Notes under the pieces: model-generated
What the model was told of the DNA's origin: nothing
The model's database searches: none
Seen by the model: the letters and a program-made list of their open reading frames with translations, nothing else
NCBI RefSeq assembly: GCF_024723735.1
Contig: NZ_JANQDU010000001.1
Coordinates: 62,001 to 126,000 of the forward strand
Reading direction: 5' to 3'
Source of the DNA: Frigidibacter sp. ROC022
GTDB lineage: Bacteria > Pseudomonadota > Alphaproteobacteria > Rhodobacterales > Rhodobacteraceae
Length of the DNA: 64,000 nt
Shown: piece after piece, positions 24,210 to 51,767 of the stretch
Numbering within the stretch: position 1 is the first letter of the stretch
Layout: each line of letters opens with the position of its first letter
Made by a program: the position numbers and the translations under genes

Positions 24210-24304
24210 TGCTCCCGCCCTTTGTCCCTTCGCAACCGTCTTAGAGCGTATGGCGCCGATTCTACAGGGTTCATCGGAAGTTCCCCGATCTTCGAATGAT
24301 TGAT

Positions 24305-24330
24305 CATTTGTATTTGACTTGCATCAAATG
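24305..24330. promoter_or_regulatory. Candidate operator between SorC regulator and ABC operon
   Basis: CATTTG (24305-24310) and CAAATG (24325-24330) form an inverted repeat with 14 bases between, in the divergent promoter region. The interval is visibly A+T-rich. SorC binding is an inference. Confidence 0.35.
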
Positions 24331-24418
24331 TTCGTATTTCCTCTTGTCTGTCCCGATCTCACCAGCGGGACAAAACTGGTGGCACTGTGCCGCCGTCGAC
24401 AGTGGGAGGATCTACCGA

Positions 24419-25411: not shown

Positions 25412-25420
25412 GGCAAAACA

Positions 25421-30272: not shown

Positions 30273-31490
30273 TCAGCGGGACGGGAACGGGAAGTCCGAC
30301 AATGACGCGATGGTTTCGCCGGGGTATTCGGGCATGCGCCTCGCAGGCACCTTGATGCCCAGGGCGTGGAACCCGCAGCGTTCAGCCGATTGCAGTCGGG
30401 TACTATCCGTGCTTACCCAGAGCGATGTCTTGTCCTTCTTGTCCACCTGTTCCGGCTCCACCGTGCCGCACAGTTCGGCCAAACCATCGATATCGAGCAG
30501 TTTCGCCAGGTCGGGCCCGGATGCCTTGTCGTCGTTGACAGCAATCAGGACCTTGACCCCCTGGGTGGTGAGCCTTGCAAGAGTTGCACGTGCCGAGGGT
30601 GCAAGCTGTAGCTGATCCGCGAAAATTTTCGCGATGGCGTTGCGGAAATGGTCGATGAAGCCGCGGGGGCATAGCTGTCCACTCCGCATGGCCACATATG
30701 TCATTGAAGCGGCGAGCGGTTGGTCGATCAGGTCATCCGTAAGAGCGTACCCGTACAGACCAAGGACATGCGTCAGTGCCTCGGCCACCAGTTCACGGCT
30801 GTTGGAAATCGCATCCAGATCGAACACTGCCATGGCGAAATCAGCCGGTAATGATTGCCGTGGTGCTGGCCCGGTGTGGCGTTCCGACGGGTGCACCAGT
30901 GTCAGCTGTGGCTGGGGCGTGCGGGGCGAGGTCCGAAACAGGTCAGGGAACTGCCAGTCTGGTTCAAGCCCCGCAAAGTGCTGCAGGTAGCTTATGGCGA
31001 TTTCAGGTCGTTCGGCTACGCTATCGCGAAAGCTCATCCAGTCGCGGAGGTTGTTCATCTGAGGCGCGTCTTCGACCGTTTCACCGAAATCCTGGGCAAG
31101 AACCGCGGCGCGCACGTTCAGGCAGAAGACCACGCAAGCATAGCCTTCCGGCCAGAACTGGGCAGCGCTATCGGGGTTCTCGACGTTTTCGTGGTGCCGT
31201 GCAGAGAGCGGCGCCTTGCGCAACAAACGATCCAGCATCAGCCCTGAGACATGATCGACATAGCGGCGCTTGTCGTGCTGCGCGGTTGGCTTTCTGCTTT
31301 CGAACGCAGCGCTCCATTCGACGAAGGCTTCTGCCAGGCGAATGGTGTCGACATCGAAGGCAATGCCGCTGTCCTCGGAGACAACAGCAATCTGTTCAAG
31401 GAAGGCCCGGCGGAACCACCGCAAACGCCGAACCGCACGTCTGACTTGTGTGTCTGGTGCAGTGAGAAGTTGGGGGGCGGGGAGTGTCAT
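30273..31490 (-). CDS. Unknown-family protein (module protein B) fused to a degenerate HAD-like domain
   Basis: 405 residues from ATG 31490, chosen because GAGAGG lies seven bases upstream. Residues about 15-185 are homologous to the protein at 44654..45271: shared blocks are RLRWF.RAF, GLML..L, FWPEGY, CLNVR and W.SFR..V, ending at FAG-EP-W..P-LFR. Residues about 215-405 resemble a HAD hydrolase: motif I is FDLDAI (both Asp kept, the usual G-T missing), motif II region VLIAVNDD, a Lys-rich VDKKDK, and a weak motif IV WVSTDSTRL. It may be a pseudo-phosphatase or have altered specificity. It lies 11 bases after its partner gene and ends the long leftward operon. No known family was recognised for the N-terminal half. 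Confidence 0.75.
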   Translation of the reverse strand: MTLPAPQLLTAPDTQVRRAVRRLRWFRRAFLEQIAVVSEDSGIAFDVDTIRLAEAFVEWSAAFESRKPTAQHDKRRYVDHVSGLMLDRLLRKAPLSARHHENVENPDSAAQFWPEGYACVVFCLNVRAAVLAQDFGETVEDAPQMNNLRDWMSFRDSVAERPEIAISYLQHFAGLEPDWQFPDLFRTSPRTPQPQLTLVHPSERHTGPAPRQSLPADFAMAVFDLDAISNSRELVAEALTHVLGLYGYALTDDLIDQPLAASMTYVAMRSGQLCPRGFIDHFRNAIAKIFADQLQLAPSARATLARLTTQGVKVLIAVNDDKASGPDLAKLLDIDGLAELCGTVEPEQVDKKDKTSLWVSTDSTRLQSAERCGFHALGIKVPARRMPEYPGETIASLSDFPFPSR

Positions 31491-31501
31491 GGGCAAACCT
31501 C

Positions 31502-32176
31502 TCAAATCAACCGCGCGCAATCCGCGATGGCGGTGCGTATGGCGGACCGTTCGTCGGGATGGAAACCGAATTTCCGCACGATCAGCGGAGCGGTGTCACA
31601 ACATAGGTCCAGAAGATCAGTGTGTTCGCTCTCGGCGTCGCGGTCTATGCACAACAGGATCACAAATGCGGTGTAGGCCAGGATGGCAGAACGGTCTTTC
31701 GGAGCGGAGGGCAGGGCAAAGGGAGCGTAACGAATGACCCTTGCGCTCTTGAGTTGGAGGAGCATCTCGGCGGGCAGTTCCGTTCTGTCCTGGTATGTCG
31801 CCGCCATTGCCGTTTGAAAGGTCTGCGCGGCAAGGGTTTCGCTGACCAATACGGGTCGGTCCGAAAATCTCTTGTAAGCGGCGCCGAGGACGCCATAGGC
31901 CAACTGGGCAAAGACCGTCGGCCCGCTCGGATGCGTTGCCAGAGCCTGAAGGGTCCAGAAATGGCCCTTCTGCAAGGTTTCACCTTCATCGAAAATGCTG
32001 TGCGCCAAACGGGATGTCGTTGCCTCGAGCCGCGATGCTATGATATCGAGACCATCTACCACGCCGCGCAAGGGACCGTGCAACTCCCGGCTCAGGGGAT
32101 CAATGGCTACCCGCCCGGCCGTCATGCCAGAGCGCAGGCCGCGCAGGAGGTCTTTGAGAGGCAAGGCACCCGACAT
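31502..32176 (-). CDS. Unknown-family protein (module protein A, copy 1)
   Basis: A 224-residue, mostly helical cytoplasmic protein. It opens with LPLKDLLRGLRSGMTAG and has VSETLAAQTFQTAMAA and YTAFVILLCIDRDAE. These align with MPLRDMFRG, LLSETLLTAQLAQLPKG and LLAITVWLLSERCDS of the protein at 43952..44644, so the two are distant homologues. Each copy is directly followed by a module-B gene. No conserved catalytic motif can be read. The segment around FALPSAPKDRSAILAYTAFV could be an amphipathic or buried helix. Function unknown. Confidence 0.72.
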   Translation of the reverse strand: MSGALPLKDLLRGLRSGMTAGRVAIDPLSRELHGPLRGVVDGLDIIASRLEATTSRLAHSIFDEGETLQKGHFWTLQALATHPSGPTVFAQLAYGVLGAAYKRFSDRPVLVSETLAAQTFQTAMAATYQDRTELPAEMLLQLKSARVIRYAPFALPSAPKDRSAILAYTAFVILLCIDRDAESEHTDLLDLCCDTAPLIVRKFGFHPDERSAIRTAIADCARLI

Positions 32177-32235: not shown

Positions 32236-32547
32236 CTAATGTTCGAGATTTGGGGTTCGGTCAAGCTTTGCGCCATATTCGCCGGGATCGGGCCCGGCTT
32301 CAATGGCGTACGCCCGGCGTTGCAGAAATTGCCTCAGCTCGATGCCGACCGTGCGCTGGCCAGCAGACTTCATTGCAGGCGCGAGGCGCTGGAATGGGCC
32401 CGGAACAACAATCGGGCCGGACCAGTTGACGATCTGCTTGGTCGTGGCGCTTTCATCGCTGGTTTCGGCGGGCTGAGCGAGCGCGCCCGCGACGCGATGG
32501 CCGATGTCTTCGAAGTGCCACGCGACGCAGCCTTTGCAGGCCGTCAT
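32236..32547 (-). CDS. Possible 103-residue protein coupled to the SorC regulator
   Basis: The ATG at 32547 overlaps the SorC stop in a TGATG, and the frame runs to TAG with mostly G/C third positions. Residues include KQIVNWSGPIVVPGPFQRL and RQFLQRRAYAIEAGPDPGEY. No family is recognised. The opposite strand is open over the same interval, so this could also be a chance frame or the remnant of a gene. Without it, 32177-32546 would be an empty gap inside an otherwise compact operon. Confidence 0.35.
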   Translation of the reverse strand: MTACKGCVAWHFEDIGHRVAGALAQPAETSDESATTKQIVNWSGPIVVPGPFQRLAPAMKSAGQRTVGIELRQFLQRRAYAIEAGPDPGEYGAKLDRTPNLEH

Positions 32548-33539
32548 CACGGATTGTCGACGGCCTCCAACAGGCTGGCGCCGGTCATCTCGTCCGTGAT
32601 CAAGACCGATGGCCTCAGCGATTTCAATGTTGCCAGCATGGTGCCGACCTTTTCCGAACCGCCCGAAATCAGCACCTTTTCGCGCACCCGCTTGAGGCGT
32701 GCCATCGACATCGAAATGGCGCGGTCGTTTACCGGGTTTTTGACCGGCTCGCCTTCTGCGTCGATGAAATTGTACAGTACATCGCCGATCGCCCCGGCTT
32801 CGATCATCGACTGTCGTTCGGCTTCGGTCACGTGGCCAAGCCGATATGACGTTGTCAGCGACGATATACCGCCGCAGGAGATAAGCGCCACGTCGCAGTT
32901 TTCGGCCATCTCGAGGATTTGATCCAACCCGCAATGTTCCAGCAGAGCGTGTCGCGTCTGGGGGGAATCGACAATAGCCGGTGCAGAGATCAGGTAGCCT
33001 TCGGCATCGAAAAGTTCGGCAAACTGCCAGGCGAATTCCGCCGGGTTGAAACGCCGCGCCTGTGCGATCCCACCAAGGAGAGACACCACCCGCACGCCTT
33101 CGAGCGATCGGCCCTCGATAAAGGGCAGCATGGCGTGCAGCGTACGTCCCCAGCCCACGCCCACCGTGATGTTCGATCGCATGATGCCAGACACATAGGT
33201 GCCGGCGGCATAGGCAATGACCCGGGTCGGATCGCCTGCGGGGTCGGAAAAGGGGGCGACGATGGCCTGTTTCAGTCCAAACTGATCTTCAAGCTGCTTT
33301 TGCATGGCGGCAATCGGGGCGAGATCCGATTGAATGCGGATCACTACCTCGCCGCGGCGCTTGGCCTCGGACAGCAGGCGGGTAATCATGATGCGGTTGA
33401 CACCAAGAGACTTGGCCACATCCGATTGGGTCATCCCCTCGATATAATAAAGCCAGGCCGCCCGGACCCGGATCTGGCTGTTCGGATCGGACGCCTTGTC
33501 ACGGTTGCCGGGATCGCTCGGTCTGGATGTGTCGGGCAT
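32547..33539 (-). CDS. SorC/DeoR-family regulator (second copy)
   Basis: A 330-residue SorC-family regulator. The helix-turn-helix is AAWLYYIEGMTQSDVAKSLG followed by VNRIMITRLLSEAKRRG; the effector domain shows GVGWGRTLHAML, VVSLLGGIAQ and LYNFIDAEGEPVKNPVNDR. EryD, the erythritol regulator of Brucella, belongs to this family, which fits a polyol operon. It lies 35 bases after the E2 gene on the same strand, so it is probably made with the enzymes it controls. Confidence 0.9.
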   Translation of the reverse strand: MPDTSRPSDPGNRDKASDPNSQIRVRAAWLYYIEGMTQSDVAKSLGVNRIMITRLLSEAKRRGEVVIRIQSDLAPIAAMQKQLEDQFGLKQAIVAPFSDPAGDPTRVIAYAAGTYVSGIMRSNITVGVGWGRTLHAMLPFIEGRSLEGVRVVSLLGGIAQARRFNPAEFAWQFAELFDAEGYLISAPAIVDSPQTRHALLEHCGLDQILEMAENCDVALISCGGISSLTTSYRLGHVTEAERQSMIEAGAIGDVLYNFIDAEGEPVKNPVNDRAISMSMARLKRVREKVLISGGSEKVGTMLATLKSLRPSVLITDEMTGASLLEAVDNP

Positions 33540-33574
33540 CGTGCCGCCTTTCGCCGTGGCTCATGGGCTCTGCC

Positions 33575-34885
33575 TCATACATGAGACCGGAGGATATTTC
33601 CAACCTCCTCTGCCGCTTCGAATTGCGGCATGTGGCCGACCCCGTCAAACAGGTGAAGCGCCATACGCCCCGGCGCCCTCAGGGCGTGCTTCCAGGGAAT
33701 GATGGCGTCGGCCTTGCCCCACAGGATGCGGGTCGGTGTCCGGATCCGCTCCAGCGCAGCGCGCAGATCAAACGCCTGCACCCCGTCCGGGAACAGCACG
33801 TCCGCCATGGCCGCCTGCGCGGCGCGCAGGTTGGCGTCACTGCGGGACTGCATCGCCAAGCGCGCGTATGCGTCTGTGATGAGGTCTTCATTGGCTACGA
33901 GGCTGCGCAACCAGGGCTTCAGGCTTTCGGTCCGTGTCGCCTTGCAGATACCACTCAACGCCTCGCCGTTGATCTGTGGACCAAGTCCCGCGGGCGCGAT
34001 GAGGTTGAGCGAAGCTAGCTGCCGTTCGCGAGTGTCGGCTAGAGCGATACAAAGCGCACCGCCAAGACTGTGGCCCAACAGGTGTGCCCTGTCGAGCTGA
34101 AGCGCATCGAAGGCCTGGCGAACCTCTCTTGCCAACATGGCGAAATCTCGGATACGCAGTTTCGGTGACCTGCCATGGCCCGGCAGATGTATGCGGATGA
34201 GCGGCCGGTGCCGCAGGGACGGTTCCAGCGGGGCCCAGGAGGTCGTGTCGTTGGCGAATCCGTGGATCATCAGGATCGGCGTGCCCTTGCCGCCCTTGCT
34301 GCGGGTGACAACCAGCGGGCCGGTTTCCGGGCGGAAGGTCGCGGGGGCCGATGGTGTGGTGAGGCCCTTAAGATATTCGCGCACGTCGAAAGCTTGCACC
34401 CGGCCGCGCGGGCCGGTGCCGTGCAGGCTGGCGAGGGGCACGCCCTCATCTCGGGCAAGCCTGCGAGCGGCTGGTGTGGCACGGATGCCTTCGCCCGCGC
34501 CATCAGCAAAGGCCATCTCGCGTTCGGTTTCCGGCTCGGGGTCGGCATCGGTGGACAGCGCTTCCGGCGCTGCCTCTGGATCGGGCAGGGGGCCCGCCGT
34601 CGGTTCGCCGACCGAGGCGAAAGAACTGGGTTGCTCTCCCACGTCTTCGCCTTCCGCATACAGCCAGGCGACCGCCTTGCCGATGGGAATTTCGGCGCCC
34701 TCGGGAGCGGCGTGGTGCAGTATGCCGCTGGCGGGGGCTTCGACCTCCATCGCGGCCTTGTCGGTTTCAATATCAAAGAGCGGATCGCCCTTTTCCACTC
34801 GGTTCCCAACAGCGACATGCCAGCACATGATCTTGCCACTCGCCATGTCCATGTCGACCTTGGGCATAATGACTTCGACGGGCAT
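33575..34885 (-). CDS. acoC: E2-like subunit: lipoyl domain, E1/E3-binding domain, alpha/beta hydrolase (AcoC-like)
   Basis: 436 residues from the ATG that shares one base with the E1beta stop. Domain 1 (about 1-80) is a lipoyl domain with the attachment Lys in FDIETDKAAMEV. Domain 2 (about 135-170) is a peripheral-subunit-binding domain, ATPAARRLARDEGVPL then LHGTGPRGRV. Domain 3 (about 195-436) is an alpha/beta hydrolase with ILMIHGFANDT, the nucleophile elbow GHSLGG and a late GHM His. This order is that of AcoC in acetoin dehydrogenase complexes rather than the CoA-acyltransferase fold of PDH E2. It should take a two-carbon acyl unit from E1. No E3 gene lies nearby; a housekeeping E3 could serve. 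Confidence 0.88.
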   Translation of the reverse strand: MPVEVIMPKVDMDMASGKIMCWHVAVGNRVEKGDPLFDIETDKAAMEVEAPASGILHHAAPEGAEIPIGKAVAWLYAEGEDVGEQPSSFASVGEPTAGPLPDPEAAPEALSTDADPEPETEREMAFADGAGEGIRATPAARRLARDEGVPLASLHGTGPRGRVQAFDVREYLKGLTTPSAPATFRPETGPLVVTRSKGGKGTPILMIHGFANDTTSWAPLEPSLRHRPLIRIHLPGHGRSPKLRIRDFAMLAREVRQAFDALQLDRAHLLGHSLGGALCIALADTRERQLASLNLIAPAGLGPQINGEALSGICKATRTESLKPWLRSLVANEDLITDAYARLAMQSRSDANLRAAQAAMADVLFPDGVQAFDLRAALERIRTPTRILWGKADAIIPWKHALRAPGRMALHLFDGVGHMPQFEAAEEVGNILRSHV

Positions 34886-35895
34886 CAAACACGCCCCTTC
34901 ACAATATCACGTGCCGCCGCAAGGATATCCGGCATCTGCGGTACAACCGCCTTTTCCAACTCGGGATTGTAGGGGATCGGGCACTCCGCGCCGCCCAACC
35001 GCACGATCGGCGCGTCGAGGAAGTCGAACGCATCGCTTTCCGCGACCATTGCCGAAATCTCGGCCCCCACACCAAGGGTCTTCACCCCTTCATAGACACA
35101 AATCAGCCGCCCGGTTTTGCGAACCGAGGAAAGCACGGTGTCGCGGTCCATCGGGCGCACGGTGCGCAGATCGATGACTTCGGCATCAATGTCGTCTGCC
35201 CTTAGCTGTTCGGCCGCCTCCATTGCTTTGTGTACCATGATCGAGGTGGCGACGATGGTCACATCCTTGCCGACCCTCCGGATCGCGGCCTTGCCGATGG
35301 GGGTGGTGTAATGACCTCCGGGCACCTGGCCCTTCATCTTGTAGAGGAGCTTGTGTTCGAAAATCATCACCGGATCGGGATCCGCGACCGCTGCAAGCAG
35401 CAAGCCTTTGGCATCCTCTGGCGTGCTTGGCTGCACGACCTTCAGGCCGGGCACGTGGCCGAGCCAAGCCTCGATGCTTTGCGAATGCTGCGCGGCTGCG
35501 CCTGTGCCGGACCCGGCCGGAAAACGCATGACCAGCGGTACCGACACCGACCCACCCAGCATGAAGCGGACCTTTGCGGCCTGATTGACGATCTGTTCCA
35601 TTGCCAGCGCGGCAAAATCCGAGAACTGGAATTCGAAGATCGGCTTGAGACCGGTCAACGCGGCCCCCACCGCCACACCGGCGCCGCCGAGCTCGGAAAT
35701 GGGCGTGTCCATCACCCGGTCGGTGCCGTATTTCTCGACGAGATCACCGGTCACCTGAAAGGCGCCGCCGTAGACACCGATGTCTTCGCCCATAAGCAGC
35801 ACCGACGGGTCGGCCTCAAGAGCGATGTCCATCGCTTCGCGGATAGCCTCGGCATAGGACAATTCGCGAATCTCGGGCTCGTTCTGGGCGTTCAT
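34885..35895 (-). CDS. acoB: Thiamine-dependent dehydrogenase E1 beta subunit (AcoB/PdhB-like)
   Basis: 336 residues from [20 protein letters not shown]; the ATG overlaps the E1alpha stop (ATGA) and is preferred to the long upstream frame. Landmarks: [37 protein letters not shown] and [18 protein letters not shown]-like [12 protein letters not shown]. The C-terminal transketolase part follows ([15 protein letters not shown]). With E1alpha it forms the ThDP active site. The family includes pyruvate, branched-chain and acetoin dehydrogenases; the AcoC-like E2 next door points to an acetoin-type substrate. Confidence 0.92.
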
Positions 35896-36908
35896 GCGGT
35901 GGCCTCCGTGGTGTAGACGTCGCGGGTCACTGCTTCGACCTTCGGGTCGGGGCCGTTGGTGGCAAACTCTATGGCGTCTTTGATGATTTTCTCTGCCTCG
36001 GCCTCGATGGCAGCCACGCCGTCTTCGGTAATGATATGATGCTCCATCAGCAGCTTGGCCATTGCGGGGATGGGATCGCGGCCCATCCATTCGTTGATCT
36101 CTTCCTTGGTCCGGTAGCGGTTGCGGTCAGACTTGGAATGCCCGCGCCAGCGGTAGGTGAGGTTCTCGACCAAGCTGGGCCCGTCTCCCGCACGGGCGCG
36201 TTCCACGGCAGCGTCCACGGCTTCGGTGACTGCCGAGAAGTCGTTGCCATCGACAGTGACGCCGGGCATCGAATAGGCCGCTGCCCGCTCGGCGATGTTC
36301 TTTACTGCAGTGGAGCGTTCGGTAGAAGTTGACATGCCGTATTTGTTGTTCTCGCACACGAAAACCACGGGCAGCTTCCAGATTGACGCCATGTTCAGAG
36401 CTTCGTGAAAGGCGCCTTCGTTGTTCGCGCCGTCTCCGAAGAAGCAGATCGTAACCGCGCCGGTGCCCAGTCGTTTGGCCGACAGCGCAGCACCCACGGC
36501 GATCGGCAGCCCGCCGCCAACGATACCGTTGGCACCAAGGTTGCCCTTGGAGGGATCGGCGATGTGCATCGAGCCACCGCGGCCCTTGCAATAGCCGGTT
36601 TCCTTGCCAAAGAACTCGGCAAACATCTTGCCAAGGTCTGCACCCTTGCCGACGCAATGGCCGTGGCCACGGTGGGTCGAGGTAATCTTGTCCTCGTCGG
36701 TCAGTGCCATGGTCGAGCCGATGGCCGAAGCCTCTTGCCCGATGCTAAGATGCATGGTTCCGTGGATAAGCCCCCGCATATAGCTGTCTTCGGCGCCTTC
36801 TTCGAATTTGCGTACAAGGTACATCTTCTTGAGGGCCTCGCGCAGCCGTTCGGGGCTGTACGCGCGGATGGCATACGGAAGGTTGGTATTCTGAGGCGTC
36901 TCAGGCAT
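35892..36908 (-). CDS. acoA: Thiamine-dependent dehydrogenase E1 alpha subunit (AcoA/PdhA-like)
   Basis: A 338-residue E1alpha. The ThDP motif runs from [20 protein letters not shown] to CENN (G-D-G through N-N), and [15 protein letters not shown] and [11 protein letters not shown] are the usual substrate-side loops. There is no phosphorylation-loop expansion. It overlaps the upstream reductase gene by eight bases and E1beta by four. In acetoin dehydrogenase this subunit attacks the carbonyl of CH3-CO-CHOH-R; 1-deoxy-D-xylulose 5-phosphate has the same CH3-CO-CHOH core. Confidence 0.92.
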
Positions 36909-38232
36909 CGAGCAGGTCCTTGCCGTAGATCATTTTGTCCTGACGCTTGCGCATTTCGAGCAACCGGGAATTTGGCAGACGCGCGTTGTGCGCAGTGATG
37001 AGCTGGCCCTTGCGGATCGGTGAGGTGACGACCGCACCAGTCAGCATGCCTGCAGGCAGCGCCTGTGCTTCCTGCGCGCGCCCGACTTCCATCGCCCAGG
37101 CGCGGTAGGTGTATTCCCCGATCTGGTCCAGCGTGTCTCCGGGGGCGAGGTCCTTCTTTGCCAGTGCGCAGGCCTCGACCACGGGCTTGTCCAGCGGCAC
37201 CATGTCTGCCTTGCCGTAGAGCACCGCGCGGGCGCAGGTCAGTGGTACTTCCAGCGATGTCAGGTGATAGGGGCGTATGAACTCGTAGTAGGGGCCGTCG
37301 CCCATCTTGAGATCCTTCATCCGCTCGTGGACGCGGGGGTGTTCCGCCTCGACGATGCAGAAGACTCCCGGGCTCACACCTTTGCCGATCGAAAAATCAA
37401 CCCGGCCGATGCCCGAAAGCAGCCCGCCGTCCTTTTCGGGGATCAGCACCTTGGCAAGTTCCTTGGGGCCTGCGGCAGGGCCGTGCATGCCATCTACGTC
37501 GGGGATGAGGCCGGTGGCGTTGCCGATGGCGGTCATTTCCACAGCTGTCTTGGAGCCGTCGACGAATTCCACCAGCAGGCGCGCGTTCATGTTCCGGCGC
37601 GTGGCTTCGTCCAAGTAGAGGTCTGGGGTGGCGTCGATGTTGAGCGGGTTGTTCTTGCCCTTGCCCGCGCATACGACCTTGTGGCCCATGGCAGACACAA
37701 ACTCGATGAGTTCCATGCAGGAAGACGGTTCGTCGCCCGCGCCGAGGCTGTAGACCACGCCAAGACGTTCCGCTTCGCGTCGAAGGTAGGCGCCGATAGT
37801 GATGTCCGCCTCGACGTTCATCATGACCAGGTGCTTGCCGTGCTCCATGGCGCGCAAGCCTATTTCCGCGCCAACGGCTGGGATGCCGGTGGCGTCAATC
37901 ACTACGTCAATCAGCCCCGAGTTGAGGATTGCGTCGGCATTGTCGGTGATTGCCACCTTGCCGTCTTCAATGGTCGCGTTGATTTCGTCGGAGGTAAGGG
38001 CATCACGGCTGTGCCCGTCGCCGCGATAGGCGATTTCGACCGCCTTGTGGGCATTGGGGGTCCGCAACTCCGAGATGGCGGCGACGTCCACGCCATCCAT
38101 CATGGCGGCGCGGGTCACGATGTCGGTGCCCATTTCTCCGGATCCGATAAGCCCGATGCGAACCGGTTTTCCGGCGGCACTGCGGGCAGCTAGATCCTTG
38201 GCCAGCCCCGTCAATGCGATATTCGAAGCCAT
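36901..38232 (-). CDS. COG4091/DRL-type NAD(P)-dependent reductase with C-terminal SAF domain
   Basis: A 443-residue protein. The N-terminus is a Rossmann domain (RIGLIGSGEMGTDIVTRAAM); the middle has DVVIDATGIPAVGAEIGLRAMEHGK and MNVEADITIGAYL; the C-terminus (about 370-430) is a SAF domain (LPAGMLTGAVVTSPIRKGQL). It is 'predicted homoserine dehydrogenase' COG4091, the family that includes DRL, the alternative DXP reductoisomerase of Brucella. It is first in the leftward operon (GGAGGAGGG ahead of the ATG), followed by an acetoin-dehydrogenase-like complex. I infer it converts a branched polyol phosphate such as MEP to DXP, the reverse of the biosynthetic step. Other dehydrogenase roles remain possible. 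Confidence 0.82.
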   Translation of the reverse strand: MASNIALTGLAKDLAARSAAGKPVRIGLIGSGEMGTDIVTRAAMMDGVDVAAISELRTPNAHKAVEIAYRGDGHSRDALTSDEINATIEDGKVAITDNADAILNSGLIDVVIDATGIPAVGAEIGLRAMEHGKHLVMMNVEADITIGAYLRREAERLGVVYSLGAGDEPSSCMELIEFVSAMGHKVVCAGKGKNNPLNIDATPDLYLDEATRRNMNARLLVEFVDGSKTAVEMTAIGNATGLIPDVDGMHGPAAGPKELAKVLIPEKDGGLLSGIGRVDFSIGKGVSPGVFCIVEAEHPRVHERMKDLKMGDGPYYEFIRPYHLTSLEVPLTCARAVLYGKADMVPLDKPVVEACALAKKDLAPGDTLDQIGEYTYRAWAMEVGRAQEAQALPAGMLTGAVVTSPIRKGQLITAHNARLPNSRLLEMRKRQDKMIYGKDLLDA

Positions 38233-38291
38233 ATTGGTACCCTCCTCCGGCGTCTTAGCTTGCGCCTAATGTGAGTGAACTTTTGCTATTA

Positions 38292-38380
38292 TGTCAATCA
38301 TAATGTTCTGGCGCGATGCCGGTCGGACAAAGACATATACATGTTTTTTGTTGACCTGCGTCGCGAAGCAGAACAATTAT
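38292..38380. promoter_or_regulatory. Divergent promoter region of the two block-2 operons
   Basis: Rightward: TTGACC (38351-38356) and AATTAT (38375-38380), 18 bases apart. Leftward: TTGACA on the minus strand (38297-38292), with only a poor -10. An imperfect inverted repeat between ACAAAGACAT (38328-38337) and ATGTTTTTTGT (38341-38351) overlaps the rightward -35 and is a candidate SorC operator. The whole 38233-38476 interval is A+T-rich against its surroundings. Confidence 0.45.
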
Positions 38381-38476
38381 GGTCTTGTGTATGATTTTGT
38401 TCACGCGGCCTCAGGGCCCTGCCCGGGAGGGGCACGGGGGAGAGGCCAGTACACGACCATCAAGGGAGGATACTCG

Positions 38477-40030
38477 ATGGATATCAGCGGAAATCTCTCA
38501 CGGCGCTCGTTCATGAAGAGCTCATCGGCCTGCGGCATCATTGCGGCAAGCGCGGGCTGGACAGGGCGCGGCCTGGCCCAAGGGTCTTTGCCGGACCCGC
38601 AGAGCATCCTGAACGAAATCTCGATCGCAAAATACGTACGCCAGGACTATCAGGACCTTTACGGCATGTCCGACGACAGGCCGATCTGGGACAATTCCAA
38701 GGACTGGATTCGCACCGTCGATTGGGAAGAGGTTCGCGCGCAGCTTGCGGGCACAACGGTGCGCTTTGCGGTCGGTGCCGCAGATGCGGAATCAGCTGCC
38801 GACGGGCTGGTCCCGTTCGAGCAACTCTCGGGCATCAAGGTCGAGTTGGTGCCGATTCCTGATGACAGTTTCTATGACAAGGCGCTGGCTGAATTCATCT
38901 CGGGAAATGCCGCCTTTGACGCGCTTCAGTTCTTTTCGCCGTGGATTGGCGATTTCGCTGCGCCGGGCTTCCTCCATCCGCTTCAGGACTTTGCCGACAA
39001 ATGGAACCTGCCGCTGGATGATTTCTACGACACCTACCGGCTCAACTACGGCTACTTCAACGGCGAAATGTACGGCATCCCCTTCGACTGCGACGTGCAG
39101 ATGGTCCACCTGCGCAAGAGCTATGTCGAGCAAGTTCTTGGTGGCCCTATCGACCTTGCACAATCGGTGCCGACTTATGACGAACTGATCCGCCTATCCG
39201 GCGAGTTGAACAATATCGAACCTGGCGTATCGGGCGTGGGCCTGATGTGCGCGCCCGGCATGTGGTCGACCTATACTTGGGAACATATCTCGGCGCAGGC
39301 AGGTATGATGCTCTTCGACGAAAACTGGGAGCCGATCTTCAATGGCGACGCCGGCCAAAAGGGCATGGATATCATCATGGCCTTGTCCAAGAACGCCAAC
39401 GAAGGTTTTGCGGGATCCGGCTGGTCGGAAAACCGCGCGGGCTGGCTAGGCGGGCAGGTCGCAACCAACATCAGCTGGCAGGACAGCGGCACCCAGGCCA
39501 TGCGCCCAGACCAGAGCCAGATCGTAGGCGATTTCGTCACCATCTACGAGCCGCGGATATCAAATGGCCGGTTCGCACCGCCTAACGTCGCGGGGTCGAC
39601 CTCCTGCGTGGCGGCGTCGGCGCAAAACCCGGAAGGGGCGTTCCTGATGCTGGCATTTCTGACCACCGCGTCGATCATGGCGATGAACGAGGCCAACGCC
39701 AACGGCGTGGCTCCGGGGTATAAGTCCGTGCTTCGGAATCCCAACCTGCAAGCAGTGTCGCAACCTGCGAAGGTCTGGGGCGAAAGCCTCGAGCACGCCT
39801 GGTGCGCCCCGCGCATTCCCGGCGCTTTCCCCATTGAGCAGGCGATTGGCAACGAGATCAACCGCGCCGTGGTCGGCCAGATCTCTGGCAAGGAAGCGCT
39901 CGACAACGCTGCAGCAGCGGTGCGCGACATCATGGCTTCGAACGGGTTCTATCAAGGCGCTGACCCGGTCGAATATGCCTCTGTACTGCCCGGCCTCTAC
40001 GTCGGCGAAGGACGCGACCTGCCCTTCTGA
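38477..40030 (+). CDS. Sugar ABC transporter substrate-binding protein, Tat-exported
   Basis: 517 residues from ATG 38477 (GGGAGGA six bases upstream). The N-terminus NLSRRSFMKSSSACGIIAAS is a twin-arginine signal, so the protein folds before export. The mature part is a family 1 solute-binding protein, long for its class, with LAEFISGNAAFDALQFFSPW, EMYGIPFDCDVQMVHLRKS and EGAFLMLAFLTTASIMAMNE. CUT1-type binders of polyols and sugars of this length are common in Rhodobacteraceae. It begins the rightward operon, ahead of two permeases and an ATPase. Confidence 0.88.
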   Translation: MDISGNLSRRSFMKSSSACGIIAASAGWTGRGLAQGSLPDPQSILNEISIAKYVRQDYQDLYGMSDDRPIWDNSKDWIRTVDWEEVRAQLAGTTVRFAVGAADAESAADGLVPFEQLSGIKVELVPIPDDSFYDKALAEFISGNAAFDALQFFSPWIGDFAAPGFLHPLQDFADKWNLPLDDFYDTYRLNYGYFNGEMYGIPFDCDVQMVHLRKSYVEQVLGGPIDLAQSVPTYDELIRLSGELNNIEPGVSGVGLMCAPGMWSTYTWEHISAQAGMMLFDENWEPIFNGDAGQKGMDIIMALSKNANEGFAGSGWSENRAGWLGGQVATNISWQDSGTQAMRPDQSQIVGDFVTIYEPRISNGRFAPPNVAGSTSCVAASAQNPEGAFLMLAFLTTASIMAMNEANANGVAPGYKSVLRNPNLQAVSQPAKVWGESLEHAWCAPRIPGAFPIEQAIGNEINRAVVGQISGKEALDNAAAAVRDIMASNGFYQGADPVEYASVLPGLYVGEGRDLPF

Positions 40031-40071
40031 GGGCATACTTTTGGGCCAAGGACAGTGCAAAGGAGCTCATC

Positions 40072-41016
40072 ATGAGCAACTCCTCCCTGCCGGCGTCCGG
40101 GGCGGCGACAGCCGCCCCGGGCAATTCGGCGCGACCCGCTTTCAAGCGCCGCAGCAAGCGTCTGAAGGCCGCCTTGCCATACTTGCTGGTGGCGCCTGCG
40201 GTTCTCTACCTGCTGCTGATAACGCTCTATCCGGGGGTCTACGCGATCATCCAGAGCTTCCACCAGGTGAAGTTTGGTCCGTGGCGGCCGATCGGCTTGG
40301 GAAATTACGAGAAGCTGCTCACCGACTACCAGTTCTGGGGGGCTCTCTGGAACACGCTTGTTATCGGCTCGATCAGCTTGGTGTTGCAATGCGTGCTGGC
40401 GCTGGCGCTGGCGTTCTACGCGTACCGGGATCCCTGGGTGAAGGGCTGGAGGATCATCTTCCTTATTCCTATGCTGTTCATGCCCTCGGCGGTGGCCTTC
40501 ATCTACAAGCTGTTCTTCCTTGATGGCCGAGTGTTCGCAGACATTCTGATGAAACTGGGGCTGGTGGATGGAAACATCGCCTTCCAGTCATCTATCTGGA
40601 TGAGCAGGGTGATCTTGATTCTTGCCGACGTGTGGCAATGGACACCTTTTCTGTTCATCATCTTCGTTGCTGGCCTTCAGGGGCAGGATGAAGAAGTCGA
40701 AGAGGCCGCCAGGTTGGACGGCGCATCGTGGTACGCGATCTTCTGGAATATCTCGCTGCCAATGATGAAACCGATCATCGCCGTAGCGCTGATTTTGCGG
40801 GCGATCGACATCACCACGATGTTCACCAACGTCTTCATCATCACCAAGGGTGGTCCTGCCTTTGGCACTGAGACGATCAGCTATTTCATCTATCGCACCG
40901 GCTTCAAATTCTTCAATTTCGGCTATGCCTCGGCTGCGTCGGTGATCATGCTGATCATTACCATTCTCGTCGCGCAGCTTGTCGTGAAGCGCGCATTCGT
41001 GTCGTCGAGGAGCTGA
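40072..41016 (+). CDS. Sugar ABC transporter permease 1 (CUT1, UgpA/MalF-like)
   Basis: A 314-residue permease preceded by AAGGAG eight bases before the ATG. Six membrane segments are expected; the EAA loop is EEVEEAARLDGASWYAIFWN with downstream ISLPMMKP. The N-terminal cytoplasmic tail is rich in Ala/Pro and basic residues (FKRRSKRLKAALPYLL). It forms the channel with the next gene product, three bases away. Confidence 0.92.
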   Translation: MSNSSLPASGAATAAPGNSARPAFKRRSKRLKAALPYLLVAPAVLYLLLITLYPGVYAIIQSFHQVKFGPWRPIGLGNYEKLLTDYQFWGALWNTLVIGSISLVLQCVLALALAFYAYRDPWVKGWRIIFLIPMLFMPSAVAFIYKLFFLDGRVFADILMKLGLVDGNIAFQSSIWMSRVILILADVWQWTPFLFIIFVAGLQGQDEEVEEAARLDGASWYAIFWNISLPMMKPIIAVALILRAIDITTMFTNVFIITKGGPAFGTETISYFIYRTGFKFFNFGYASAASVIMLIITILVAQLVVKRAFVSSRS

Positions 41017-41019
41017 CCC

Positions 41020-41865
41020 ATGGCATCCCAACGGAAAAGATCCAAGGGCGAGAGCCTGACGCTTCGTTACCTGATCCTTGGTGGATGGGCATTGTTCTGC
41101 CTCGCACCCGTGCTGTGGTTTCTATCCATCGGGTTGCGCCCGCGGATCGAAATCATTACGCCGCAGCCGATCTACATCCCCAGCTTCTCTCTTGATGCCT
41201 GGCATATGATCTGGGACGACTGGCCGATGGCGGCCTATCTGCGCAACTCGGTCGCGGCAATCATCGGGTCTGTGATCATTGACTTGGTGTTGGCAATCCC
41301 GGCGGCCTATTCGTTGGCACGCTTCCGCTACAGGGGCCGCGATGACATCGGCTTTTATATCCTGTCCACCCGGATGATGGCCCCGGCCATCGTTGCCGTG
41401 CCGATCTTCTTTCTGTTCCGCAATCTCGGGCTGCTCGACACGATCTGGGCACTGATGCTGATCTACGCCGCGATCAACCTGAGCTTCGTCACCTGGATTA
41501 TCCGCAGTTACATGCTGGACATCCCCAAGGAACTCGAGGACGCCGCCAAGACTGACGGAGCGGGCGAGATCCGCATTCTGTGGGAAATCATCATCCCCGC
41601 CGTCCTTCCGGGGATCATCACGGCGTCGGTGATTGCCATGATCTTCGCGATCAACGAGTTCCTGTTCACACTTCTCATTGCCTCGACCCCGGACGCCTAC
41701 ACCATGTCTGTCGCCCTATCGAATTTCACCGGCGGGTCTGACGGGGTCATCTACAACGCAATTGCACTTGTCGCCTTCCTAGCCTTCGTGCCGGTCTTTC
41801 TGGTGGTTGTCGCCATCCAGAAGCACCTGTCGCGCGGGCTGACAATGGGCGCGGTGAAAGGGTAA
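41020..41865 (+). CDS. Sugar ABC transporter permease 2 (CUT1, UgpE/MalG-like)
   Basis: A 281-residue permease, partner of the preceding gene. EAA loop: LEDAAKTDGAGEIRILWEIIIP, with the P-Y/R-like sequence around LYAAINLSF-type helices (LMLIYAAINLSFVTWIIRSY). Six hydrophobic segments can be counted. The gene ends five bases before the ATPase start. Confidence 0.92.
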   Translation: MASQRKRSKGESLTLRYLILGGWALFCLAPVLWFLSIGLRPRIEIITPQPIYIPSFSLDAWHMIWDDWPMAAYLRNSVAAIIGSVIIDLVLAIPAAYSLARFRYRGRDDIGFYILSTRMMAPAIVAVPIFFLFRNLGLLDTIWALMLIYAAINLSFVTWIIRSYMLDIPKELEDAAKTDGAGEIRILWEIIIPAVLPGIITASVIAMIFAINEFLFTLLIASTPDAYTMSVALSNFTGGSDGVIYNAIALVAFLAFVPVFLVVVAIQKHLSRGLTMGAVKG

Positions 41866-41870
41866 CGACA

Positions 41871-42920
41871 ATGGCACGTATCGAACTGACCGAAATCCAG
41901 AAAAGCTGGGGCCCCATAATAGGGGTGCGCGATGTCAATATCGAGATCGCCGACGAGGAGTTCGTCGTTTTCCTTGGCCCGTCGGGCTGCGGCAAGACCA
42001 CTACCATGCGGATGATCGCCGGCCTAGAGGATCCTTCCGAGGGGCGCATCGTGATGGATGGCGAGGTGATGAACGACATAGACGCGCGTGACCGCGACGT
42101 GGCCATGGTCTTTCAGGGTTACGCGCTGTACCCCAACATGACCATCTACGAGAATATCCGCTTCCCGCTGCGTATGCGTGGTGTGCCGCGCGACCAGCAC
42201 GAGGGCAAGGTGAGACGCGCGGCCGAACTCGTGGAGCTGACCGACTACCTCGATCGCAAGCCGGGGGCGCTCTCGGGAGGTCAGCGGCAGCGGGCGGCGC
42301 TGGCCCGCGCGATCGTGCGCCAGCCGCAGGTCTTCCTGATGGACGAACCTCTGTCGAACCTTGACGCGAAATTGCGGCAGGCCATGCGGGTGCAGATCAA
42401 ACACATACAGCGCGAACTGAAGATCACCACCGTCTATGTGACACATGACCAGATTGAGGCGATGACCCTCGCCGACCGCATCGTGATCATGGACAAGGGG
42501 GCGATTCAGCAGATCGGCACGCCGGACCAGATCTACAACGATCCGGCCAACACCTTCGTGGCCGGCTTCATCGGGTCTCCGCCCATGAATCTGGTCGAAG
42601 GCGCGCTTGAGGGCGGCACCTTTCGTGCGCCGGGAATCGAAGTTGGAAACCTGCCCACCCGCCATTCCGGCGCTGTTACGCTGGGTGTACGCCCCGAGGA
42701 TTGTACCGTCGCAGGCATGTCGTCCCACCTGTCGGGCACGGTCTATGGTGTTGAGCCCACTGGCGACATAACCTACCTGACACTCAAAGCTGGTGAGAAA
42801 CTCGTAGAAGTCAAAGCCGACCGAGACTACCGCGCCCCGCTCAACAAACCCGAGACAGTCGCTTTCGATCCGTCGCGGATTCATCTCTTCGACACAGCCA
42901 CCGGGCAGAGGCTAAGCTGA
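41871..42920 (+). CDS. Sugar ABC transporter ATP-binding protein (UgpC/MalK-like)
   Basis: A 349-residue MalK-type ATPase with Walker A GPSGCGKTT, Q-loop QGYALYPNMTI, signature LSGGQRQR, Walker B VFLMDEPLSNLD and switch VTHDQIEAMTLADR. The C-terminal TOBE/OB region (GSPPMNLVEG, LGVRPEDCTV, YGVEPTGDITYLTLKAGE) is typical of CUT1 systems. It completes the importer of the rightward operon. Confidence 0.94.
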   Translation: MARIELTEIQKSWGPIIGVRDVNIEIADEEFVVFLGPSGCGKTTTMRMIAGLEDPSEGRIVMDGEVMNDIDARDRDVAMVFQGYALYPNMTIYENIRFPLRMRGVPRDQHEGKVRRAAELVELTDYLDRKPGALSGGQRQRAALARAIVRQPQVFLMDEPLSNLDAKLRQAMRVQIKHIQRELKITTVYVTHDQIEAMTLADRIVIMDKGAIQQIGTPDQIYNDPANTFVAGFIGSPPMNLVEGALEGGTFRAPGIEVGNLPTRHSGAVTLGVRPEDCTVAGMSSHLSGTVYGVEPTGDITYLTLKAGEKLVEVKADRDYRAPLNKPETVAFDPSRIHLFDTATGQRLS

Positions 42921-42978
42921 CCCAGGTGGTCCCCGTACAGAGGTGGAACTGCAGGAGAAAGACGCAGGAGGAGACATC

Positions 42979-44019
42979 ATGACGTTCGACTACACGGCCC
43001 TTGGGTTCCACACCTTTGATGCGCTCTGCCGCCCGGTCAGTGCCCTCTCGCCAGACGGCAGCACGACTTTCGTCGAGGATTTCGCCATTGCGATTTCGGG
43101 GGCCGCCGGGTCTGCGGCCGTTGTCGCCGCCAAGCATGGGCTTTCGGTGCAAGCGGTCGGCGGGGTCGGCAACGACCTCATGGGGGATTGGGTGCTACGC
43201 CGTTTTGCCGATTTCGGCGTCGACACTGAAATGATGCAGCGTTGCGACGGCGTCGCCACCTCGTCAAGTATTGTCACAACCCGTCCGGACGGCCAGCGCC
43301 CTGCGCTGCACAAGCTGGGCGCCACAGGGGCCTTCTATGTCGATGATGCGCAGGTGGACCGCGTGCTCGATACCCGTATTCTGCACGTTGGCGGCGTTGG
43401 CCTGATGGATGCCATGGATCGCGGCCGCAATGCCGAAATCATGGCCGAAGCCAGCAAACGCGGCATAACCACAACACTTGACGTCTTCGCCTCCAAGCCC
43501 GAGGACTTCGCGCGCGTGCAGCCGCTTTTGCCTCACACGGACTACTTCATGCCGTCCGAAGAAGAAGCCGCAGCCCTCTCTGGCCTGACCGATCTCGAAG
43601 ACATTGCCAGTTTTCTGCTGGACCAGGGCACCGGGGCGGTTATCCTGACACTTGGGCCGAACGGTGCCATGTATCGTGGCCAGGATGGCACCCGCATAGA
43701 TCTGCCCGCCTATGCTATAGACATGGTCTGTTCATGTGGCTGCGGTGACTGCTTCAACGCGGGATTCGCGACCGGATTGCATTTGGGGCGGAGCCTGACC
43801 GATTGCATTCGCATTGCTCAGGCCACGTCGGCGCTGAACGCCACGGGTCTGGGATCGCAGGCCGGGGTAACCTCGCTTGAAGAGACACTGAAATTCATGG
43901 AGACCGCCCCTCTTCGAGGCTATGATGACGACATCACCACAGGACGCCATGATGAAACCGACGCCATTCCTTCCCGACCCGAAGATGCCTCTGCGCGACA
44001 TGTTCCGCGGGGCAGCTAG
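42979..44019 (+). CDS. PfkB-family carbohydrate kinase
   Basis: 346 residues from ATG 42979 (AGGAGGAG just upstream). The ribokinase fold is shown by GSAAVVAAKHGLSVQAVGGVG, DYFMPSEEEAAALSG, and the C-terminal anion-hole/catalytic motif CGCGDCFNAGFATGL, with Asp as catalytic base (normally G-A-G-D). It should phosphorylate the imported sugar or polyol at a primary hydroxyl. With the neighbouring DRL-type reductase, 2-C-methyl-D-erythritol is the substrate I infer; MEP would be the product. Its 3' end overlaps the next gene by about 68 bases. Confidence 0.9.
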   Translation: MTFDYTALGFHTFDALCRPVSALSPDGSTTFVEDFAIAISGAAGSAAVVAAKHGLSVQAVGGVGNDLMGDWVLRRFADFGVDTEMMQRCDGVATSSSIVTTRPDGQRPALHKLGATGAFYVDDAQVDRVLDTRILHVGGVGLMDAMDRGRNAEIMAEASKRGITTTLDVFASKPEDFARVQPLLPHTDYFMPSEEEAAALSGLTDLEDIASFLLDQGTGAVILTLGPNGAMYRGQDGTRIDLPAYAIDMVCSCGCGDCFNAGFATGLHLGRSLTDCIRIAQATSALNATGLGSQAGVTSLEETLKFMETAPLRGYDDDITTGRHDETDAIPSRPEDASARHVPRGS

Positions 44020-44644
44020 TCTCGCGGACGGCACACATCAGGCACTCGAACCGGCCGCACGGATGTTGCCCAAGCTACTGCGCGACGAGCTATCGACTGC
44101 CTTCCAGTCGATCCGTTCGACAGGGAAGCGCCTGGTGATGACGCCGGTCAGCCTAGAGCAGATTGCGCTGGCTGGACGTGTTGTTCAGGGTCTCGCGCAA
44201 GACCCGGCTGCCGCCGCGACCTGTGCCACTGTGATCGGCCGCGCTTGGCACCACCTGAGCCATGCTCCCGATGGTAAGACGCACCACCATCTGCTGAGCG
44301 AAACCCTCTTGACGGCGCAGCTTGCCCAATTGCCCAAGGGCGTGGCGACGCCTGCGGATCACGCGGCGCAGCTGGTTCGGCGGGTGCTCGACGGCGGCGC
44401 CATCGGGGCCGCGCCGGGGCTCTTCATCCCTCTCGGCGCCGAGGAAAAGGCCGAGATATCTCTGTCGCTACTGGCCATCACGGTCTGGCTGCTGTCAGAG
44501 CGCTGCGACAGTCTTGATGAGGAAGACCGCCTTGTAGATCTTGCGGCGGCGCTGGTGTTGGCCACCCGCGACGATGCGCTTGAGGCCATGCGCGGCGAGA
44601 CAACGCTCTCGGCCTATCTCGCCCGGGCCTCGGATCATCTATAG
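43952..44644 (+). CDS. Unknown-family protein (module protein A, copy 2)
   Basis: About 230 residues from ATG 43952, which has AGGA seven bases upstream; ATG 43922 and 43949 are alternatives. Early MPLRDMFRGAASLADG, then HLLSETLLTAQLAQLPKG, AAPGLFIPLGAEEKAEI and SLLAITVWLLSERCDS. These correspond in order to blocks of the protein at 31502..32176, whose neighbour is likewise a module-B gene. Mostly helical, no signal peptide, no recognisable active site. It overlaps the PfkB gene and lies nine bases before module B, so it is translated with both. Confidence 0.72.
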   Translation: MKPTPFLPDPKMPLRDMFRGAASLADGTHQALEPAARMLPKLLRDELSTAFQSIRSTGKRLVMTPVSLEQIALAGRVVQGLAQDPAAAATCATVIGRAWHHLSHAPDGKTHHHLLSETLLTAQLAQLPKGVATPADHAAQLVRRVLDGGAIGAAPGLFIPLGAEEKAEISLSLLAITVWLLSERCDSLDEEDRLVDLAAALVLATRDDALEAMRGETTLSAYLARASDHL

Positions 44645-44653
44645 TAGCATGCC

Positions 44654-45271
44654 ATGAGCCTTCCTCTGACGAGATCCGCCGACCAAGAGCTGGTGCATAA
44701 GTCTGCCCAGCGTCTGCGCTGGTTCGTGCGCGCATTCGAGACGCAACTTGAAGAGACCGAGGCCGAGACCAACAACCGCTTTACTCTGGACCGCGCTGCG
44801 CTTGCGGCCGTCTTCGCCGAGTGGCTGCGCGCGTTCGAGGCCCAGAAACCGGTCTCTGCCGATGACAAGCAGGCCTATGTCGGATTTGCCGCGGGGCTGA
44901 TGCTGCGCACCCTGATCACGCGCAAGCCTGTTACCCTGCAATCGTGCGCCGAAGGCGCGGACCGGTCGAACCCTGCCTATTTCTGGCCCGAAGGCTACCT
45001 TTACGTAACCTATTGCCTGAATGTGCGCGGGACCGTGCTTAAGAACGATTTTCATCACGAGCAGCACAACAGCCCCACCATGGACGAAATCCGCACATGG
45101 TGGAGCTTCCGCGAGAACGTGGAACAGGATCCGTCACTGGCCATCGCTTTCCTCGATCTCTTCGCGGGAGACGAGCCCGAATGGACCATGCCCGAGCTCT
45201 TTCGTTCAGGAAAGCTGTCCGAGATCGCCTCACGCTTCTATCCCACACCAACCATCGACGGCGCCCACTGA
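44654..45271 (+). CDS. Unknown-family protein (module protein B, copy 2, without HAD domain)
   Basis: A 205-residue helical protein homologous to the first half of the gene at 30273..31490. Shared features in order: QRLRWFVRAF, AFEAQKP..ADDK-AYV, AAGLMLRTL, YFWPEGY, YCLNVRGTVL, W-WSFRENV, AIAFLDLFAG-EPEW-MPELFR. By eye roughly 35-40% of aligned residues are identical. It ends where the other copy continues into its HAD-like domain. It is the last gene of the rightward operon. Function unknown; linkage to sugar-kinase and transport genes suggests a role tied to this catabolism. Confidence 0.75.
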   Translation: MSLPLTRSADQELVHKSAQRLRWFVRAFETQLEETEAETNNRFTLDRAALAAVFAEWLRAFEAQKPVSADDKQAYVGFAAGLMLRTLITRKPVTLQSCAEGADRSNPAYFWPEGYLYVTYCLNVRGTVLKNDFHHEQHNSPTMDEIRTWWSFRENVEQDPSLAIAFLDLFAGDEPEWTMPELFRSGKLSEIASRFYPTPTIDGAH

Positions 45272-45445
45272 GCAGCGGTTACCCGGGCGTTGTCGACAAA
45301 ACTGGCCTGAGACGGGCTGAATGGTTTCGTCGCTTCTGCCAAGGGTCGCCTTTGCTGCCAACGTGATGCCGTGGCTTTGACGCTCCATGCGTTTGGGCAC
45401 TAGTATGATGACATGACAAGAATTCGTCCCGGAGGCGACTTTGCA

Positions 45446-46991: not shown

Positions 46992-47051
46992 GTCCAGTTT
47001 CCTTGCTTGCCAGTATGTTGGTGCGGGCAGGGCGCGTGCCCCGATCTCCCG

Positions 47052-50496: not shown

Positions 50497-50568
50497 GGGA
50501 TGCAAGCTCAGATCATCGAGAGATTGGGGGTGCTCCGCGCCGCGGCTGCGGCGCGGAGCCTTGGCCGT

Positions 50569-51627: not shown

Positions 51628-51643
51628 TTCTTTCCTCCCTAAC

Positions 51644-51679
51644 GACCAATTTGAAGATGCCGTCATCGGCAAGTTGGTC
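51644..51679. promoter_or_regulatory. Inverted repeat in the apionate divergent promoter
   Basis: GACCAATTTG (51644-51653) and CAAGTTGGTC (51670-51679) are a 10-bp inverted repeat with one mismatch and a 16-base spacer. The half-site resembles AATTGGTC upstream of glcD. Binding by the block-3 GntR regulator is inferred. A+T-rich bases that follow (51703-51730) could hold the promoters. Confidence 0.45.
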
Positions 51680-51767
51680 ATCACCTTGTTATACCAGTTG
51701 CATTCTCAAGCAAGAAAAAATATTCTTGGCAAGACAACAGGTCCGATGAGCAGGAAGGCTTGGAGCA

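Follow-up and report, generated by a model that had tools for sequence, protein, structure and literature searches.

Four described systems come close to the one considered here. The acetoin dehydrogenase complex AcoABC carries out a cleavage of the CH3-CO-CHOH-R type, and erythritol-type operons combine an importer, a kinase and a dehydrogenase with a regulator of the SorC family (EryD). The type II 1-deoxy-D-xylulose 5-phosphate (DXP) reductoisomerase of Brucella abortus, DXR-II or DRL, has been solved structurally (3UPL, 3UPY) and has a recognised role in biosynthesis (PMC3847144). In Salmonella, a dxr mutant takes in and phosphorylates methylerythritol (PMC3994034), and the sorbitol phosphotransferase system (PTS) transports it, going by the title of Testa 2004 as cited in that paper; as PMC3994034 presents it, this uptake feeds isoprenoid synthesis in the mutant, not growth on methylerythritol as carbon. 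The window, a stretch of 64,000 nucleotides from Frigidibacter sp. ROC022 (genome size 4.4 Mb, completeness rating 100%), holds a ten-gene cluster that resembles the first three systems in part, and relatives of its DXR-II adjoin the PTS type of the fourth in Alphaproteobacteria and Bacillota. Compared with erythritol-type operons, it has a reductoisomerase and a thiamine-dependent E1/E2 pair in place of the erythrulose-phosphate steps. We consider it likely that the cluster is an inducible pathway that consumes 2-C-methyl-D-erythritol or a very close relative, passing via 2-C-methyl-D-erythritol 4-phosphate (MEP) and DXP to acetyl-CoA and glyceraldehyde 3-phosphate.

An initial annotation had described ten genes in two divergent units at 32547-44019 and had read them as such a pathway. 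Open reading frame (ORF) positions and family profile searches bear out this layout, with every gene where it had been placed. The module itself reaches past both ends of that interval, where members of an uncharacterised gene pair, described further below, flank it. The core features are as follows.

32547-33539, minus strand: SorC-type sugar-sensing transcription regulator (Pfam Sugar-bind PF04198, 170.7 bits)
33575-34888, minus strand: E2 with lipoyl, E3-binding and alpha/beta-hydrolase parts, acetoin dehydrogenase E2 type (Pfam Biotin_lipoyl, E3_binding, Abhydrolase)
34885-35895, minus strand: E1beta of a thiamine-diphosphate dehydrogenase, DXR-II-linked subfamily (Transket_pyr and Transketolase_C)
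35892-36908, minus strand: E1alpha of the same enzyme, proposed DXP cleavage (E1_dh, 313 bits)
36901-38232, minus strand: DXR-II/DRL, type II DXP reductoisomerase by sequence, COG4091 (3UPL/3UPY, 611 bits; PF21135, 214.7 bits)
38370-38403, no strand: putative operator TGAACA-N22-TGTTCA with one mismatch, in the divergent promoter region (motif scan)
38477-40030, plus strand: solute-binding protein of a sugar ATP-binding cassette (ABC) importer (SBP_bac_1, 90.3 bits; twin-arginine-type signal by eye)
40072-41016, plus strand: ABC permease, UgpA-like (family profiles)
41020-41865, plus strand: ABC permease, MalG/UgpE-like (family profiles)
41871-42920, plus strand: ABC ATPase, UgpC/MalK-like (family profiles)
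42979-44019, plus strand: PfkB sugar kinase, proposed methylerythritol 4-kinase (PfkB, 135.5 bits)

By family profiles the CUT1 importer set is complete, with its binding protein, two permeases and a MalK-type ATPase, and the PfkB kinase has distant solved relatives only. The HTH_23 match at the N terminus of the regulator scored 21.0 bits, under the cut-off of 24.6. The probable true starts of E1beta (35895), the binding protein (38477) and PfkB (42979) lie inside the longest ORFs. The cluster in the window lacks an E3 gene; its counterparts from Rhizobium, S. meliloti, Agrobacterium and Priestia include lpdA.

In the pathway that we propose, the ABC importer would bring in methylerythritol and the PfkB kinase would phosphorylate it to MEP. 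DXR-II would then work in reverse, converting MEP to DXP by an oxidation with NAD+ and a rearrangement; the DXR reaction has been described as reversible (PMC13001223). E1alpha/E1beta would attack the CH3-CO end of DXP, freeing glyceraldehyde 3-phosphate, and the acetyl unit would be passed via the lipoyl E2 to coenzyme A, with an E3 presumably borrowed from another complex. The SorC protein would sense a sugar phosphate of the pathway and let go of the operator. If DXP is formed, an acetyl-transferring E1/E2 is needed only for a CH3-CO compound; a hydroxymethyl analogue would give xylulose 5-phosphate, for which none is needed, and this chemistry would favour methylerythritol over apiitol-like substrates. 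A mutated pyruvate dehydrogenase (PDH) E1, aceE, makes DXP in E. coli and raises DXP about 20-fold (PMC3424233), so the enzyme class can handle DXP chemistry. The methylerythritol reading of the initial annotation gains support from the grouping of DXR-II, the separate type I DXP reductoisomerase (DXR-I), the exchange of import modules, the operator and the acidic residue 55, and among the matches listed in the open-licence literature (titles and abstract openings) we found no description of such a pathway.

The COG4091 protein is, by its sequence, a type II DXP reductoisomerase. Its alignment with the Brucella enzyme spans residues 1-435, contains one gap and scores 611 bits, and all ten residues compared are retained: G121, E174, F178, K191, K193, T229, H250, R320, Y322 and V351. 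These come from PMC3847144, which singles out, among others, K191, K193, T229 (substrate), R320, E174, F178 and Y322 and names further critical sites beyond those compared. For the residue tallies 163 sequences were reduced to 121 distinct ones, omitting DXR-II with internal stops (L072 and its copy L126) or with coverage below 85% (e.g., L091). K191, K193, T229, H250 and R320 were kept in all 72 copies linked to E1, in all 31 unlinked alphaproteobacterial copies and in 5/5 Bacillota copies, and K193 or T229 occurred in none of 10 DLO-type proteins. A FastTree tree placed the window protein inside DXR-II, with the 10 DLO-type rows across a branch of support 89, on long branches. The earlier identification of the protein as DRL-like is thereby upheld: in the phylogeny against Brucella DRL and non-DRL members it grouped with DXR-II and apart from the DLO-type members. 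Its closest DXR-II relatives among the matches listed are from Rhodobacterales, e.g., Salipiger (93%). A misnamed homoserine dehydrogenase was considered and rejected on the match to the DRL structures and the residue tallies. The E1-linked DXR-II frame of Aminobacter anthyllidis (L072, L126) is interrupted by a stop codon. The DLO-type COG4091 proteins of L172 and L174 lie in polysaccharide clusters, adjoining glucose-1-phosphate cytidylyltransferase and rfbC genes, and may carry out a DXR-like rearrangement on nucleotide sugars.

Although the window protein is a near-full-length homologue of the Brucella enzyme in the same clade, it differs from it in its setting within a sugar-uptake and E1/E2 operon, in the presence of DXR-I in the same genome and at the cofactor site. 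The solved enzyme itself belongs to the unlinked group (L107 against 3UPL, 894 bits). An acidic residue ending beta-strand 2 of a Rossmann fold is usual for NAD+. Residue 55, at the end of that strand, is Glu or Asp in 72/72 distinct E1-linked copies (E55 in the window), and 12 Brucella-type copies carry Ala-Arg-Arg in this region; the acidic residue points to NAD+ as the likely cofactor of the catabolic form.

We compared 97 loci, made up of 80 named loci, 12 plasmid loci and 5 Bacillota loci. The 80 named loci scored best among 498 matches to the window DXR-II, so that the set is biased towards this protein, and the counts are descriptive only because related species are not independent. E1 adjoins DXR-II in 74 of the 97, all of them alphaproteobacterial; the two genes share 8 bases in the window and are at most 150 bases apart in the linked loci measured. 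DXR-II, E1alpha and E1beta form a conserved block, and their arrangement is not chance. SorC homologues are present in many of the linked loci. An ABC importer (at least three genes) with PfkB accompanies the block in 24 of the 74 and a glucitol PTS (at least two genes) in 20, with no locus holding both; in Aminobacter L083 the PTS genes lie past the 11-kb limit. Neither module occurs in any of the 18 unlinked loci (17 distinct, L175 repeating L066). A glucitol PTS substitutes exactly for importer plus kinase, since import and phosphorylation by a PTS are one act. The Bacillota evidence consists of five plasmid-collection records, two of which, from Listeria, carry genes that we take to be chromosomal. 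A glucitol PTS is present in 4 of the 5. DXR-II genes adjoin glucitol PTS and SorC-type genes in Listeria, Enterococcus and Ligilactobacillus; the fifth locus, from Priestia, combines GutM and a PTS IIC truncated at the edge of the locus with E1alpha, E1beta, E2, E3, SorC and DXR-II. In Ligilactobacillus salivarius (L089, 10007-17578) the genes that come after DXR-II and the glucitol PTS are annotated as fructose-6-phosphate aldolase and transketolase, not as E1/E2, which is perhaps another way to cut DXP.

The annotation of E1/E2 as acetoin dehydrogenase-like stands for the E2 and has to be revised for the E1. E2 passes the NCBIfam acetoin dehydrogenase E2 model NF011457 (354 bits, cut-off 307) and shares its architecture, but E1alpha falls short of the PDH model (389.2 against 393.85 bits) and E1beta passes only the broad PDH-E1beta subfamily model (395 against 321 bits). 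Identity to the PDH of the same genome and to the E1s of two acetoin-like operons is 43-46% for E1alpha and 42-45% for E1beta; for the latter it is 45% to the PDH E1beta of the same genome, 78% to the linked protein of Terrarubrum and 60% to that of Priestia. In a joint E1 tree of 43 chosen loci and the window, whose branches are long and deep order unsure, 37 linked alphaproteobacterial E1s form one clade (support 100), joined at 92 to Priestia and to an E1 from a Clostridioides difficile plasmid. The linked E1 is, by sequence comparison, a distinct subfamily that is neither PDH nor acetoin dehydrogenase, and a plain PDH was rejected on the E1alpha score and the separate clade. Linked E1alpha shares THRGHGHC with the acetoin-operon E1alpha (SYRDHGHM in the PDH of the same genome) and has His49 and Thr51, which are absent from five comparison E1s; in linked E1beta a GSGTG loop, with Ser129-Gly-Thr131, lies next to the conserved QHS. 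His49, Thr51 and this loop may hold the sugar phosphate. Unlike AcoABC, whose type of cleavage it is proposed to share, the window E1 is linked to DXR-II, an importer and a kinase, and its neighbourhood lacks acetoin reductase, butanediol dehydrogenase and AcoX/AcoR-type genes. On the C. difficile plasmid (L214, 4001-9921), whose E1 falls within the linked subfamily, SorC, E1alpha, E1beta, E2 and E3 are encoded close to glycoside hydrolases; no DXR-II is annotated in the stretch shown.

The genome of the window holds one DXR-II, one canonical DXR-I and ispG, and because of the ordinary DXR-I the DXR-II would be spare for biosynthesis. We chose 50 of the 80 named loci, isolates first, and searched 49 genomes. 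All 49 gave a DRL-domain match and 17 have DXR-I. By hand tally, 46 carry an E1-linked DXR-II: 17 of these also have DXR-I, 25 have an unlinked DXR-II without DXR-I, and 4 have neither, so that another DXR enzyme stands alongside the linked copy in 42/46. The other three have unlinked DXR-II only, with DXR-I not found. Genome G024 has linked DXR-II, unlinked DXR-II and DXR-I together, and in G021, one of the 25 without DXR-I, the linked copy is interrupted. The four exceptions carry ispG, and the linked copy is the only DXR seen there, which suggests that the linked enzyme itself can make MEP, unless these drafts are incomplete. In seven Phyllobacterium/Aminobacter pairs the linked and unlinked copies are identical at 434-438 of 438-439 residues (1-4 differences). 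DXR-I was not found in the six of these genomes that were searched (the seventh pair being L050/L056), and such near-identical pairs in genomes without DXR-I imply that a linked protein of the window type should have DXR activity. Each of the 10 genomes in the set named Brucella or Ochrobactrum has one linked and one unlinked copy; this pattern and what PMC3847144 reports make it probable that one functional O. anthropi enzyme belongs to the linked type. In Phyllobacterium sp. 628 (L175, 2375-9320) a ribose-type ABC importer and a gene for an aldose epimerase precede the unlinked DXR-II, which matches the linked copy at 438/439 residues.

Upstream of the linked DXR-II genes lies a candidate operator. 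We scanned 320 bases upstream of DXR-II for TGAACA-N22-TGTTCA with at most one mismatch in 12, leaving out L001, L042 and L053 with their short upstream sequence. The site precedes DXR-II in 54 of 73 E1-linked loci, the window included (21 exact), compared with 1/17 unlinked loci, 0/5 Bacillota loci and 3/1460 shuffles; alternative spacings from 16 to 28 were found in at most 3/73 linked loci. Across whole linked loci there are 72 sites, of which 59 precede DXR-II, 6 the binding protein, 3 PfkB and 1 the P205 gene described below, with 3 not assigned. The unlinked loci hold three sites in total, two in L169 (before DXR-II and before SorC) and an unassigned one in L079. The site at 38370-38403 is the only one in the window at that stringency, and by eye many sites enclose a TTGAC -35-like box. 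The near-identical unlinked Phyllobacterium/Aminobacter copies have no operator, which fits copies kept for constant biosynthesis. The SorC protein is the candidate to bind this element.

Several observations weigh against the pathway as drawn. An import module is incomplete or absent in the stretch examined in 30 of the 74 linked loci (24 with none, 5 with PfkB alone, 1 with the importer alone; some are on short contigs). The operator is absent at one mismatch from 19 of the 73 linked loci, including all four PTS-type plasmid loci (L086, L167, L177 and L178), and the unlinked L169 does carry it. The linked E1 clade is apart from both PDH and acetoin E1, and the two acetoin-operon references pair together. 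Glu55 also occurs in 17/31 unlinked copies, so acidic residue 55 is no clean marker of catabolic or biosynthetic copies, and we rejected its use alone as the mark of the former. In the Listeria and Ligilactobacillus loci, the stretch shown contains PTS and DXR-II genes and lacks E1/E2, which means that the second half of the pathway may differ there or that the substrate may not match. Finally, the text of PMC3994034 names an ATP-dependent kinase, not the PTS, as the phosphorylator of methylerythritol in Salmonella.

Other readings of the cluster have to be weighed against the same data. It is unlikely that the compound degraded is another branched or deoxy polyol, such as another 2-methyltetrol isomer or a longer 1-deoxyketose precursor, with DXR-II and E1 doing the same chemistry on an analogue. 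The lack of a close solved relative of PfkB and the presence of an apionate-type branched-sugar locus in the same window would suit such a substrate, but the ten retained residues, the near identity of linked and unlinked copies in genomes without DXR-I and the PTS type reported for methylerythritol itself (in the title cited in PMC3994034) argue for methylerythritol. The assignment of the best NCBIfam models to PDH E1 and acetoin E2 would agree with an ordinary pyruvate or acetoin dehydrogenase that is merely co-regulated; we regard this as improbable in view of the supported clade that the linked E1s form with the Priestia and C. difficile plasmid E1s, their 42-46% identity to the references and the residues that both linked subunits keep and the five comparison E1s lack. 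Lastly, DXR-II could supply isoprenoids or thiamine/pyridoxal, its neighbours being an unrelated catabolic operon for an acetoin-like compound. The enzyme is known from biosynthesis (PMC3847144), the E1-linked copy is the only DXR seen in 4/46 genomes, and one such cluster (L178) has thiC and thiO close by. This is nevertheless a very improbable account of the window, given the DXR-I in its genome, the 8-base overlap and close spacing of DXR-II and E1alpha, the operator before linked far more often than unlinked copies, and the acidic cofactor residue.

Methylerythritol catabolism also bears on the history of DXR-II. In the FastTree tree the deepest alphaproteobacterial branch contains three E1-linked members and a fourth that has the operator but not E1; the biosynthetic group of Brucella type arises within the remaining alphaproteobacterial DXR-II. 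This topology fits a catabolic origin with later biosynthetic recruitment, but linked and unlinked labels are mixed on the tree (14 changes) and long branches surround the root. We see about an even chance that DXR-II was catabolic at its root and spread in exchangeable uptake operons through Alphaproteobacteria and Bacillota, that the biosynthetic form in Brucella and related bacteria was recruited from it, with a change of cofactor, while DXR-I was being lost or afterwards, and that P205 is a new dedicated part of the pathway. Methylerythritol is made by plants and also forms from isoprene in air. If the proposal holds, this would be the first degradation route for methylerythritol as far as our literature search showed, with an essential drug-target step operating in reverse; it could account for the scattered occurrence among bacteria of an odd second form of an essential isoprenoid enzyme, and might provide a sensor inducible by methylerythritol as well as a new family of enzymes that cleave DXP.

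The interpretation of the module in the initial annotation captured a core gene set that our data support, and overlooked a further family, P205, that is often part of it. Its members in the window, with those of a partner, P240, are listed here.

30273-31520, minus strand: second P205-type domain, fused to a HAD-like domain (blastp 40% over 191 amino acids; HAD_2 20.1 bits, below cut-off)
31502-32176, minus strand: second P240-type protein (26% to P240, E 5e-4)
43922-44644, plus strand: P240, weakly conserved partner of P205, no family; the ORF overlaps the end of PfkB and the start may lie inside
44654-45271, plus strand: P205, uncharacterised all-helical protein (no Pfam/NCBIfam family)

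The P205 family (about 205-216 residues) has no Pfam or NCBIfam match. A homologue is present in 37/74 linked loci and in 36/56 linked loci of at least 15 kb, and in none of the 22 loci without E1 (18 unlinked and 4 Bacillota); it was not found in, e.g., the Terrarubrum and Brucella/Ochrobactrum stretches. Among 31 records with P205 in the plasmid collection, 30 also hold DXR-II, 29 of them within 12 kb; conversely, P205 is missing from 8 of 38 plasmid records whose DXR-II is at 52% or more. When 289 genomes were drawn evenly from the class, P205 was found in the window genome only and DRL-domain proteins of all kinds in 67. The predicted model is mostly helical, of good confidence (pLDDT 87.7), and had no fold match in the PDB at E<=0.001. 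HAD phosphatases adjoin P205 in Aminobacter and Nitratireductor; a role in relief of phosphosugar stress would be a guess.

Two other loci lie close by in the window. Next door, at 45413-57293, is a divergent D-apionate-type locus with an ApnL-like protein (408 bits, cut-off 750), an OiaX-like RuBisCO-like protein (434, cut-off 700), an OiaK-like kinase (515, cut-off 700), a GntR regulator, a sugar ABC importer and a dehydrogenase; its substrate may be a variant branched acid. Just upstream of the cluster, at 23235-28191, another SorC-type regulator, recognised by eye, is divergent from an ABC importer.

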